Source of the DNA: Candidatus Cybelea sp.
Lineage (GTDB): Bacteria > Vulcanimicrobiota > Vulcanimicrobiia > Vulcanimicrobiales > Vulcanimicrobiaceae
NCBI GenBank assembly: GCA_036489315.1
Contig: DASXFZ010000047.1
Location: 62,001 to 126,000 of the forward strand
Reading direction: 5' to 3'
Length of the DNA: 64,000 nucleotides
The notes under the pieces are model-generated. The model did no database searches, had not been told where the DNA came from, and was given only the letters and a program-made list of their open reading frames with translations. The translations under genes were made by a program, and so were the position numbers. Each line of letters opens with the position of its first letter. The stretch's first letter is position 1. Shown in pieces: positions 50,505-54,803 of the stretch.

Positions 50505-51773
50505 GTGTTCATTGACGATGCCGAGCGCTGGCATCGGACCGGCGAAGAGGCACTCCTCCTGCGGATGATTCGCTCGACGTGCTCGGGCGTGCCGCACGAT
50601 ATCGGCGCCGCCTACGCGACGCTGGCCTCACGGACGGGAAACCTGCTCGACGCGATCGACCGCGGTGCCCTCGCACTGCCCGCACCCGAACGGGACGGTG
50701 TCCTGCGTTTTGCGTCGCGCGCGCGGCGGGTCCGCGCGCTGCCCGACGATCTGGACTCTGCGACGTTACGAACGGCGGTCGCCGAGGCGTTTGAGATGCG
50801 CGCTTCGCAAACACCCTTCGACAAGCCCTTCGACACGGCTGCGGGTGACACAGATGGCGGAGCTCAGGGTGACACTGATAGGGAGTTTGAGCTAGCCGAG
50901 GCGGTTGTGCCGGAACCAGCTTGCGGCGTTGCGGGGTGGCAGAAGCACTTCAGCGCCTCGGCACTCAACGCGTACGCGGAGTGCGCGCGCAAGTGGTTTT
51001 ATCGCTACGCGTGCGCGGCTGTCGAAGATGAAGGTTCATCTGCTTCCGCCTACGGCACCGCCTTTCACCTCGCGCTCGAAGATTTTCACGGCGAGTTTGC
51101 GCGCCCGCGCGCCACGGAACGCTCGGCGATGCGCCGGCGAATGCGCGACTACGTTGCGTGGGCGTTCGAGCGCAACCGCACCGATTTCGGAACGCGCGTC
51201 GAGTTCGAGCTTGCGGTCCGCCGGGCGCAGCGAACGGCGCTGCGGTACATCGAGTGGCTGCTGGCCGAGGAGGCGCAGGCACCCTTCGAGGTGCTCGGGC
51301 GTGAGGTTCCGGCGAGTCTCGAGCTCGAGGGGCGGCCCTTCGTCGGGTTCATCGATCGCTTGGATCGCGACGATCGCTCCGGCGCCATCGGCGTCGTCGA
51401 TTACAAGACGGGCAGCATCGCTACGAGCCCCGCGGAGTACGCGGAAAAGGTGCGCCGCTTCGAGGATTTTCAGCTTCCTTTCTACTATTGGGCGCGCACG
51501 GCCGCGGGCGACCGCGTCGCCAAGCTGATGCTGATCCCGCTCAAAGACGCGCTCCTGGACGTCAAACCGATCGTCGTGGAGGTCGGCAAGACGATCCGTC
51601 TCGACGAACTCGAGCGCTCGAAGGCAAAGATGATCGAACTGAGCGGCCACCTCTCGTCGGGAAAGGTCGCTCACTTCAACACCGCGCCGACCCCGTCGCC
51701 GTGCACCTTCTGCTGCTACGCAACGGCGTGTACGAAAAAGCCGTTTCCTGAAGCCGCGCGTTTCGGAAGTTGA
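50505..51773 (+). CDS. AddB-like [4Fe-4S] PD-(D/E)XK nuclease
   Basis: A 422-residue RecB-family nuclease starting at GTG. The nuclease core has GTAFHLALEDF (motif I His), FIDRLDRD, the DYKTG motif in GVVDYKTG, and QLPFYYWA. Four cysteines, C160 in YAECARKWFYRY and three in CTFCCYATAC (C-x2-C-x5-C), match the iron-sulfur staple of AddB/Cas4 nucleases. The N-terminal about 100 residues resemble the tail of an AddB subunit; the usual helicase-like remainder is missing. Residues about 104-124 are translated from interspersed repeats. The stop overlaps the next gene (TTGA), so nuclease and helicase form one operon. Confidence 0.88.
   Translation: MFIDDAERWHRTGEEALLLRMIRSTCSGVPHDIGAAYATLASRTGNLLDAIDRGALALPAPERDGVLRFASRARRVRALPDDLDSATLRTAVAEAFEMRASQTPFDKPFDTAAGDTDGGAQGDTDREFELAEAVVPEPACGVAGWQKHFSASALNAYAECARKWFYRYACAAVEDEGSSASAYGTAFHLALEDFHGEFARPRATERSAMRRRMRDYVAWAFERNRTDFGTRVEFELAVRRAQRTALRYIEWLLAEEAQAPFEVLGREVPASLELEGRPFVGFIDRLDRDDRSGAIGVVDYKTGSIATSPAEYAEKVRRFEDFQLPFYYWARTAAGDRVAKLMLIPLKDALLDVKPIVVEVGKTIRLDELERSKAKMIELSGHLSSGKVAHFNTAPTPSPCTFCCYATACTKKPFPEAARFGS
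50814..50874. repeat. Interspersed repeat, composite copy inside the nuclease gene
   Basis: Two left halves, CCCTTCGACAAG and CCCTTCGACACGG, then GGGTGACA, a spacer and a right half GCTCAGGGTGACA. It stays in frame (61 bases with adjoining bases) and encodes a Gly/Asp-rich linker between the N-terminal region and the nuclease domain. Confidence 0.75.
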
Positions 51774-53839
51774 TCGCGCTCGACCTAACGCAAGAGCAGC
51801 GCGCCGCCGTCGAAGGGCCGCTCGACGCCTGTTTCGCGATCGTAGGCGCCGCGGGTACCGGCAAAAGCACTGCGCTCGCGCAGCGGCGCGAGCGCGTGCG
51901 TGCGCTTCACCCCGGCGCGCAGCCGCTGATAGTTTCCGCGCCGCGCGCGCTGGGCGAGTATGCGGCCGAGCTGCTGCGCGCGAGCGGTCGCGAGATCGCA
52001 CTCGTCGACGACGTCGAAGCGGAGCTGCTCTTCACGCAGGCCTGCGAGCCGCTCTTCGAGCTCCAGTGGGAAGAGTTTGCGGCCGATCGGCTCGATCCCG
52101 AGGTTCCGGGGCTGCGTTCGCCGTCGCGCTTCCTGCGCTCGGCCTTTCGCTTGATTCGGCGGCTCGGCGACGCCGACACCAGCCCGGCTTCGTTCCTGGC
52201 CGCCGCGCTCACCGGGGCGACCGAGTTTTACGCAAATCCACCGAACTTCGCCGATCCCTCGCTGCTGATCGCGACCAAGAACACCTACCACGATTCGCTC
52301 GACGTGGCAGCGGCAGAGCTCGCGCGCCAGTATCGCCGCGAGATCGATCTCGCTAAAATTCTCGCCCGTCTCTACGAAGACTACCAGCGTCTGGTTGCAG
52401 CCTCCGGACGGATGACGGGGCGCGACGCCGTTGCCGCGGCGGCCGCGATGCTGCGTGAAGACGCAGCGTTGGCCCAGCGGCTGCGAGAACGCTGCCGGTT
52501 CGCCTTCGTCGACGACGCGCAGGAGCTCACCGAAGCCGATCTGGCGCTCTTGCGCGCGATCTTCGGGGAAAGGCTGGCCGGGGTAACGCTCTGCGGCGAC
52601 CCGGCCCCCTCGGTATCGACGGTGCGCCGCACGCAGCCGCAAGCAGTCTTCGCGCTCGGCGCTTCGCGCGTGAAGCTGCAGGAACTGAGGCGTTCTCCGC
52701 GCGTCGAGCTGCACCGTCCGCCGTCCGCCGGCGAGGAGGCTTCCTTCATCGCCGATCGTGTCGCGGCGTGGATCGGAGAGGGCGTCAGCCCCGAGCGGAT
52801 CGCGGTGATCTTTCGTTCCGTGCGCACCGTCGAGCAGTACGAAGCCGCGCTGCTCGATCGCAACATTCCGGTGCTGATCTCAGGCGACGTCAACCTCTTT
52901 ACCGACCGGCGCGCGCTCGACGCGCTCGCGCCGCTGTGGAACGTCCACGATCCGTTTCGCCATGAGTGGCTGCTGCGGACGCTCGAAGGGCCGGCGCTGG
53001 GTCTTTGCGATGCGTCGCTGCAGCTTCTTTGCGCGGAGCCCAGCGATCCGCAGCGTCCGCTCTTTGCCTTCGACGACGAGCCCGCTCCCACGACGCGCAC
53101 GAGCCGCTGGAACCCCAAGCGCGATCTGCGCTTGGGGTGGAACGTTATTCGTGGCGAACAGGACGCGGCGCTCTCCGAGGACGCGCTGACTCGCGTCCAG
53201 CGTTTTCGCCGGCTGCGCGAAGGCTGGCTCGAAATCATGGAATCGCAACACTTCGAAGTGTTCGCGCGCGCCGTCTGGCGCGACGCGCTCGCGCGCGAGG
53301 GCGATCCGGGATCGGCGCGGGCTCGAAGCCAAGCGATGCTGCTGCAGCGCCTCCTCGAGCGACTGCGTGAGTTTACCGCGGAGCATCCCGAGGCACGCGT
53401 AGCCGAGATCCTGGCCTACGCGCAGCAGCGAATGGAAAGCGACCTCGAGAGCTGCGAAGCCGCCGATCCGCGCGGAGCGGGGCGAGGCTTCGTGCAGATG
53501 CTCAGCGTCGAAGCGGCGCAAGGTCTGGAATTCGACCACGTCGTGGTGGGCAACGTTCGTCCCGGCTCGTTTCCGCTCTGGTATGCTCCGGAAGCCTTTC
53601 TCTTCAGTCCGCGGCTTGGCATGATTCCTAAAGAGAACGCGGGTGAGGCTCAGGCATCGCGGACCGCTAAGTTCACTTACTACATGTTTCGCACGAAGGC
53701 CGTGCAGCGATACAACGAACGGGAGCGCCGGGCGCTGCACTACGCGATGCGCCGCGCGCGCCAGAGCGCACTGGTCACCGCGTGGGGTACGCCGACGCGC
53801 GGGATCACCGCGCCCGAGCTGCTCGAAGAGCTGCGCTGA
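51770..53839 (+). CDS. UvrD/Rep-like superfamily 1 helicase
   Basis: A 689-residue SF1A helicase. Q-motif LTQEQRAAV, Walker A IVGAAGTGKSTALAQ, motif II FAFVDDAQELTEADLALL (DDAQ in place of DExQ), and the C-terminal VQMLSVEAAQGLEFDHVVVGNVRPGSFP (motif V) and RALHYAMRRARQSALVTAWG (motif VI). It is shorter than AddA (about 1200) and has no nuclease domain. Starts at TTG overlapping the nuclease stop. The pair probably acts together in double-strand end processing, as AddAB or AdnAB do; that is inference. Confidence 0.88.
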   Translation: MIALDLTQEQRAAVEGPLDACFAIVGAAGTGKSTALAQRRERVRALHPGAQPLIVSAPRALGEYAAELLRASGREIALVDDVEAELLFTQACEPLFELQWEEFAADRLDPEVPGLRSPSRFLRSAFRLIRRLGDADTSPASFLAAALTGATEFYANPPNFADPSLLIATKNTYHDSLDVAAAELARQYRREIDLAKILARLYEDYQRLVAASGRMTGRDAVAAAAAMLREDAALAQRLRERCRFAFVDDAQELTEADLALLRAIFGERLAGVTLCGDPAPSVSTVRRTQPQAVFALGASRVKLQELRRSPRVELHRPPSAGEEASFIADRVAAWIGEGVSPERIAVIFRSVRTVEQYEAALLDRNIPVLISGDVNLFTDRRALDALAPLWNVHDPFRHEWLLRTLEGPALGLCDASLQLLCAEPSDPQRPLFAFDDEPAPTTRTSRWNPKRDLRLGWNVIRGEQDAALSEDALTRVQRFRRLREGWLEIMESQHFEVFARAVWRDALAREGDPGSARARSQAMLLQRLLERLREFTAEHPEARVAEILAYAQQRMESDLESCEAADPRGAGRGFVQMLSVEAAQGLEFDHVVVGNVRPGSFPLWYAPEAFLFSPRLGMIPKENAGEAQASRTAKFTYYMFRTKAVQRYNERERRALHYAMRRARQSALVTAWGTPTRGITAPELLEELR

Positions 53840-53843
53840 CGGC

Positions 53844-54803
53844 GTGCGTCTCAAAGAGATTTCGCCCGAGCACTACGCGCGCGACGTCCTGCCGCTGACC
53901 TTTCCGCTCTGGGCCGGACGGCGCGACTTCGAGCTCTACGTCGACCAAACGCTCGAGATCGCGCGCGGTGCGTATGGGCGTCGCCACTATCGCACGCTCG
54001 GACTCTACGATGGTAAGACGCTGCTCGCGTCGTTCAAGCGCTACGAGCGCGAGCTGCACGACGGCGACCGGCGCCTGCGCGCAATCGGCTTCGGTGCCGT
54101 CTATACGCCCGAACAGTTTCGCGGGCGTGGCTACGCCAGCGTGATGATGGCGGCCGAGCTGGACCGCGCGCGTGACGCGGGCTACGATCTAGCCTACCTT
54201 TTTTCGGATATTCGCCCGGAGTTCTACGCGACGTTCGGGTTCCGCGCGCTGCCGTCGCGCGAATGGACGCTGCGCGCGGACTTGCTGCCGGTTCGACGCA
54301 TCCACCCGGCGCCGTTGCGCGGCGACGATTGGAGCGGCGTGCGCCGCGTCTTCGCGGCCTGCGAGGCCGGGCGGCCGGCGGGCTTCACGCGCGGTCAGAG
54401 CGCGTGGGGCTGGATTGGGATGCGGATGCGTCATGGCTCGGAGCTTGCCGCCGGCCAGGCGTTCAATCTCGTGCTGCGGCGGCCGCGGGGCGTGCGCGCC
54501 TACGTGCTTGGCGCGCGCGCACCCGAGAAAGACGCGTATATTCTGGAGGAATACGGTTTCGCCGACGAGGCCTCCGCCGCGCTGATCCCCTCCCTGCTGC
54601 GCGCGGCTGCGGGCGATCTGCAGAGGATTACCGGCTGGCTGCCGCCCGGCGACTTTCGCGACCTGCTGCCGAGCGGTGCCCCGCGCAAGCGAACGCGCTC
54701 GATCTTCATGATCGCGCCGCTTCGGCAAGAGGGCCGCGAGCTGCTCGAGCGCGCGCTGGCGCGCAGAGGCGCGGAGTTCTGCTGGGCAACCGATCACATC
54801 TGA
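53844..54803 (+). CDS. GNAT-family N-acetyltransferase
   Basis: A 319-residue protein, GTG start 4 bases after the helicase stop. The GNAT acetyl-CoA motif is in GAVYTPEQFRGRGYASVMMAAELDRARDAGYDLAYLFSD, followed by PEFYATFGF. The second half (about 180-319) is a less conserved domain, so this may be of the two-domain Eis/SCP2-like type. Acceptor unknown. The same operon position suggests co-expression with the helicase/nuclease pair. Confidence 0.85.
   Translation: MRLKEISPEHYARDVLPLTFPLWAGRRDFELYVDQTLEIARGAYGRRHYRTLGLYDGKTLLASFKRYERELHDGDRRLRAIGFGAVYTPEQFRGRGYASVMMAAELDRARDAGYDLAYLFSDIRPEFYATFGFRALPSREWTLRADLLPVRRIHPAPLRGDDWSGVRRVFAACEAGRPAGFTRGQSAWGWIGMRMRHGSELAAGQAFNLVLRRPRGVRAYVLGARAPEKDAYILEEYGFADEASAALIPSLLRAAAGDLQRITGWLPPGDFRDLLPSGAPRKRTRSIFMIAPLRQEGRELLERALARRGAEFCWATDHI

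Follow-up and report, generated by a model that had tools for sequence, protein, structure and literature searches.

Two overlapping genes and their products

The window (the whole stretch of 64,000 nucleotides that was analysed) comes from a contig of Candidatus Cybelea sp., a little-studied soil bacterium of a class within the Eremiobacterota. Two adjacent genes, called NUC and HEL here, lie on its forward strand and encode proteins of 422 and 689 amino acids (Table 1). The four bases that they share, already proposed in the original prediction as a point of translational coupling, have been confirmed in the sequence, and of the 74 distinct related loci with measurable spacing, 63 offer an in-frame HEL start exactly at -4; judged from this arrangement, the two genes are probably coupled in translation. 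Upstream of NUC, ubiX is divergently oriented, with its start 59 bases away. The order ubiX (divergent), NUC, HEL and a gene for a GNAT-like protein is kept by most loci in both the window's family (f1) and its sister family (f2), and in a third family (f3) NUC and HEL stay together without the ubiX and GNAT neighbours. The GNAT-like gene (53844-54803, roughly 320 aa), also noticed in the original prediction, is thus a conserved neighbour in two of the three families and possibly co-transcribed with the pair; no tie to the function of the pair was found, and the protein has no known link to repair.

Table 1. Position of NUC, HEL and their features in the window
Feature	Position	Strand	Evidence
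NUC, Fe-S PD-(D/E)XK nuclease (GTG to TGA), assigned to the AddB/AdnA side	50505..51773	+	PF12705, E=3.3e-33; Foldseek matches AddB, AdnA; nuclease tree
NUC aa 1-95, helical domain, probable 2B vestige	50505..50789	+	pLDDT 89-98; Foldseek vs D. radiodurans UvrD; weak profile match
NUC aa 100-147, linker, poorly conserved, mostly disordered	50802..50945	+	low pLDDT; dN/dS 0.16-1.76
NUC aa 148-409, nuclease domain (H188, D284, D299-Y300-K301, Q323; C160, C400, C403, C409)	50946..51731	+	residues invariant in 36 proteins; dN/dS 0.04-0.15
TTGA, NUC stop overlapping HEL start	51770..51773	+	sequence; start at -4 in 63/74 loci
HEL, SF1A motor without nuclease domain (TTG to TGA), assigned to the AdnB/AddA side	51770..53839	+	Pfam; AlphaFold model; TM-scores; motor tree
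HEL Walker A, GAAGTGKS, aa 26-33	51845..51868	+	G31 26/26, K32 25/26
HEL motif II, DDAQ, aa 248-251	52511..52522	+	D248 26/26; second residue D/E, 26/26
HEL R349, motif IV arginine	52814..52816	+	26/26
HEL R662, motif VI arginine	53753..53755	+	26/26

The NUC protein contains a single PD-(D/E)XK domain (PF12705) according to Pfam, and the four Fe-S cysteines and the nuclease residues of this domain show no variation across the 36 aligned NUC proteins, as expected of the AddB-type Fe-S nuclease that had been predicted. Its AlphaFold model (mean pLDDT 87.6) finds its best PDB matches by Foldseek in AddB (E=3.5e-8) and AdnA (3.2e-7), with Dna2 at 5e-4. No NCBIfam model scores above its cut-off, the best being TIGR03623 and the alphaproteobacterial AddB; the Cas4 model gives 9.2 bits at a cut-off of 65. 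The prediction that this nuclease is devoid of its helicase half holds in that NUC carries no motor, although it is not a bare nuclease, since its first 95 residues resemble subdomain 2B of UvrD. In Foldseek, NUC matches the UvrD of D. radiodurans over 97-99 columns (rmsd 3.1-3.6), which is the size of the N-terminal helical domain; the match was placed on this domain by size, as the output gives no residue ranges. A profile comparison also links the region weakly to the 2B stretch of B-side motors (E=1.7e-4, hhalign probability 50), and an hmmsearch for such a vestige in NUC returned nothing convincing. Size and profile match together suggest that the domain is probably a remnant of 2B.

In HEL, Pfam recognizes only domains of the UvrD family (UvrD_C, E=1.8e-15; UvrD-helicase, E=6.3e-12). 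The protein ends after motif VI and is followed by the GNAT gene, without the second nuclease present in AddA, which agrees with the proposal of a helicase lacking a nuclease. Besides the residues listed in Table 1, R316 is invariant in the 26 aligned proteins. In the same alignment most proteins have DDx(Q/H/E) at motif II in place of DExQ, and f2 and f3 show a degenerate motif III; some lineages may therefore possess a weak motor, and its strength may differ among them. The AlphaFold model of HEL (mean pLDDT 88.3) reaches its highest TM-score with AddA (up to 0.72), followed by AdnB (0.67) and UvrD (about 0.5). No NCBIfam model exceeds its cut-off here either; the best one, the UvrD/PcrA equivalog, gives 63.6 bits where 1144 are needed. 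A plain UvrD is ruled out by these TM-scores and by the motor tree described below, and the UvrD-type helicase of the original prediction is better described as a relative of the AdnB/AddA motor subunit.

Descent and distribution of the pair

The two halves have been placed in separate trees. In the tree of nuclease domains, the NUC proteins (support 100) join the first subunits of two-subunit systems and the AddB-like proteins (97), apart from the second subunits. In the motor tree, HEL is sister to the second-subunit, AdnB-like motors of the class (SH-aLRT 100), and this group excludes first subunits, AddA-like proteins and UvrD. The deeper order of both trees is uncertain, given the quick method by which they were built and the meeting of some long branches in the nuclease tree. 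The two trees thus trace NUC to the A side (AddB/AdnA), as its nuclease half, and HEL to the B side (AddA/AdnB), as its motor half. The kinship to large two-subunit helicase-nucleases that had been suspected is thereby supported, together with the structural matches, and the phylogenetic comparison with AddB and UvrD that had been recommended groups NUC with AddB/AdnA-side nucleases and HEL with B-side motors, not with UvrD.

The pair is nearly universal in the class. A search with NUC gave matches in 111 of 117 class genomes; the sole match in two of these (G008 and G016) is a large AdnA-like protein, which leaves NUC in 109 of the 117 genomes and in 47 of the 48 genera, with one genome (G035) represented by a short fragment only. 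HEL is located directly downstream of NUC in all pair loci with enough sequence. Among near relatives, dN/dS is 0.04-0.15 for the nuclease domain of NUC and 0.12-0.19 for HEL, and both genes are, by this measure, under purifying selection; the corresponding values are about 0.2-0.6 for the N-terminal domain of NUC and those of Table 1 for the linker. Outside the class, searches of further classes in the phylum found nothing but large AddB-like proteins or a lone nuclease, a set of 199 genomes from another phylum yielded no pair and one weak lone nuclease, and plasmids gave only distant UvrD matches. Over the range covered by these searches, the pair therefore appears restricted to the class. 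Two loci carry names from elsewhere. One (L128), recorded as Proteobacteria bacterium Centralia_MAG_155, has in its genome (G150) the same match coordinates as a class genome (G011), so that the record is probably a misnamed Eremiobacterota MAG; the other (L126), recorded as Bryobacterales bacterium bog_233, bears the terminal part of a HEL gene at the contig edge, in a genome otherwise without NUC, and is probably a misbinned Eremiobacterota contig.

The length of NUC is variable. Its open frames are extended at the N-terminus by about 200-300 aa or more in L037, L038 and L064 (genera g37 and g36) and in L050-L056 (f3), and these extensions show neither a Walker A motif nor NCBIfam matches. 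The open frames measure about 600-800 aa in f3, and the whole of NUC about 317 aa in f2. This range suggests a stepwise loss of the helicase half across lineages, read from length only and with uncertain starts in these GC-rich frames.

Full-size relatives of the pair also exist in the Eremiobacterota, as two-gene systems (L141 2965-9267, L145 2845-9032, L061 5294-11231 and others). The first protein (about 1000 aa) combines a Walker A motif and DE(F/L)Q with an Fe-S nuclease of the CxxCx5C pattern; the second (about 1070 aa) combines a Walker A motif and DE(F/Y)Q with a nuclease that lacks the CxxCx5C cysteines. These systems are referred to as AdnAB-like and not AddAB because the second protein scores 157 bits with AdnB and only 72 with AddA. 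They occur in f2, in the majority of f3 and, overall, in seven genomes of f1, and the small pair accompanies them almost everywhere. A survey published in 2019 found RecBCD, AddAB or AdnAB in 88% of bacterial genomes, and AdnAB in Actinobacteria only (PMC6452273). Three f3 genomes (G003:C13, G007:C96 and G009:C59; L137-L139) also carry an additional PF12705 nuclease, about 330-420 aa long and with no helicase gene beside it.

A candidate for end resection

The genome of the window is a draft, 95% complete, and what can be said about it rests on family searches. NUC is its sole PF12705 match, and its UvrD-family genes are HEL and one UvrD of 720 aa only. No AddAB, AdnAB or RecBCD, whose presence elsewhere in the genome was the first check proposed for the pair, is detectable by these PF12705 and UvrD-family searches; the PF12705 control search had matches in 12 of 14 named genomes. 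Among the 56 good-quality genomes of f1, 42 lack a second PF12705 match (including G104, assembled as a single contig), nine have one further match and five contain full AdnAB-like genes. RecJ (TIGR00644) was found in none of the 117 class genomes by a search whose control matched 13 of 14 genomes. The genome of the window encodes RecO and Ku.

The AddAB system offers a frame for interpreting these data. It unwinds DNA with a single motor. Of its two nucleases, that of AddB degrades the 5'-ended strand and that of AddA cuts the 3'-ended strand up to the encounter with Chi, which is recognised by the inactivated helicase domain of AddB (PMC4824097). On balance, and by a modest degree, NUC and HEL are probably a reduced helicase-nuclease of the AdnAB/AddAB type, with one motor and one nuclease, forming an end-resection complex that cuts the 5' strand without Chi control. 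The computations establish what the proteins contain (a complete Fe-S nuclease in NUC, a complete SF1A motor in HEL), where the halves come from, how well they are conserved and in which genomic setting they lie; we infer complex formation, strand polarity, Chi independence and a role in break repair. HEL would travel 3'-to-5' on the 3'-ended strand and unwind the broken DNA end, and NUC, bound to HEL, would cut the 5'-ended strand. The product would be a 3' single-strand tail for RecA, which is probably loaded via RecFOR, given the presence of RecO. Because both the 3'-strand nuclease of the AddA side and the Chi-scanning domain of AddB are missing, the tails would be recombinogenic from the start. 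As nearly all members of the class keep the pair, mostly without a full-size version, it may initiate DNA break repair in these bacteria. A stronger form of the proposal is put forward more tentatively and falls short of being probable: that the pair belongs to the AddAB/AdnAB/RecBCD superfamily as a natural form with a single motor and a single nuclease, fixed in a permanent "post-Chi" mode in which it unwinds ends and cuts the 5' strand only, and is the main resection enzyme of a class without detected RecJ and mostly without AddAB, AdnAB or RecBCD.

The co-occurrence with full AdnAB-like genes in several lineages indicates that the pair may have a separate job and is not a simple replacement everywhere. 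For the same reason, the two proteins might cooperate on another substrate (stalled forks, flaps, gaps or incoming DNA) and leave breaks to a different enzyme; eukaryotic Dna2, in which one motor and one Fe-S nuclease are also combined, acts on flaps and forks besides breaks. This alternative is considered rather unlikely, however, as most f1 genomes harbor no further candidate of the superfamily and no RecJ was detected in the class. Still less probable is that NUC and HEL are separate enzymes that share an operon and work alone or with other partners. Nucleases of the PF12705 type do occur without a helicase neighbour in other lineages, but adjacency and gene order of the pair are kept in all three families, even in different surroundings, and the trees derive its halves from subunits that are partners of each other. 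An anti-phage or CRISPR-related module, similar to Gabija or Cas4, is very improbable: PADLOC reports weak matches (GajB to HEL, 4.7e-12; Cas4 to NUC, 1.5e-5), but only at superfamily level, and the fixed syntenic core locus across the class differs from the patchy spread usual for defence genes. Finally, NUC and HEL each correspond to no more than a portion of a large subunit, yet fragments of a frameshifted or decayed AddB or AddA, an outcome named beforehand as fatal to the original prediction, have a negligible probability, being refuted by synteny with intact flanking genes, by the same gene limits in dozens of species (including that of the single-contig G104) and by conservation and dN/dS values that denote purifying selection.

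Comparison with known helicase-nucleases

The reduced resection complex favoured here can be set beside several known systems. The AdnAB of mycobacteria (PDB 6PPJ, 6PPR, 9NP6) is likewise encoded by two adjacent genes, NUC resembles the nuclease fold of AdnA and HEL the motor of AdnB, and the full-size relatives within the class show AdnAB-like motifs in both subunits. However, each AdnAB subunit has both a motor and a nuclease, whereas NUC has no motor (a probable 2B piece remains) and HEL no nuclease. The AddAB of Bacillus subtilis (PDB 3U44, 4CEJ) shares with the pair one working motor and an AddB-type Fe-S nuclease, and AddA is the top structural match of HEL; but the pair lacks the AddA nuclease and nearly all of the AddB Chi scanner, of which about 95 residues resembling 2B are left, and the sizes are about 1166 and 1232 aa in AddAB against 422 and 689 aa. 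The division of activities that had set the pair apart from the AddAB and AdnAB fusions in the original prediction is borne out by Pfam and the models. RecBCD belongs to the same functional class, and HEL is related to the RecB motor, although RecBCD works with two motors, one nuclease and the RecC scanner, and its nuclease is on the same chain as a motor.

Other systems are similar in architecture or gene arrangement. Eukaryotic Dna2 joins one motor of the SF1 type to one RecB-like Fe-S nuclease, but does so in a single chain and with another motor type, and the likeness, which includes the Foldseek match to NUC, is architectural and does not imply close kinship. In another class of the same phylum, a TIGR03623 protein, also an AddB-like Fe-S nuclease, adjoins an AddA-like helicase; those proteins, unlike the pair, are full-size (about 900 and 1180 aa) and the second has its own nuclease. 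Gabija likewise places a UvrD-like helicase gene (gajB) next to a nuclease gene (gajA), but GajA is a TOPRIM protein where NUC is a PD-(D/E)XK nuclease, GajB matches are weak and no GajA match is listed for NUC. No description of a split or minimal AddAB-like pair was found in the literature searched, whose reach excluded most subscription papers.

The pair suggests a way for recombinational repair to begin in a class that has no detected RecJ and mostly none of the known resection complexes; as a small two-protein system it also lends itself to biochemistry. If it resects without Chi control, it would also bear on the open question of why bacteria regulate resection by Chi (PMC4824097). Counted in motors and nucleases, RecBCD has two and one, AddAB one and two, and AdnAB two and two; the pair, with one of each on separate subunits, would represent the missing and smallest combination.
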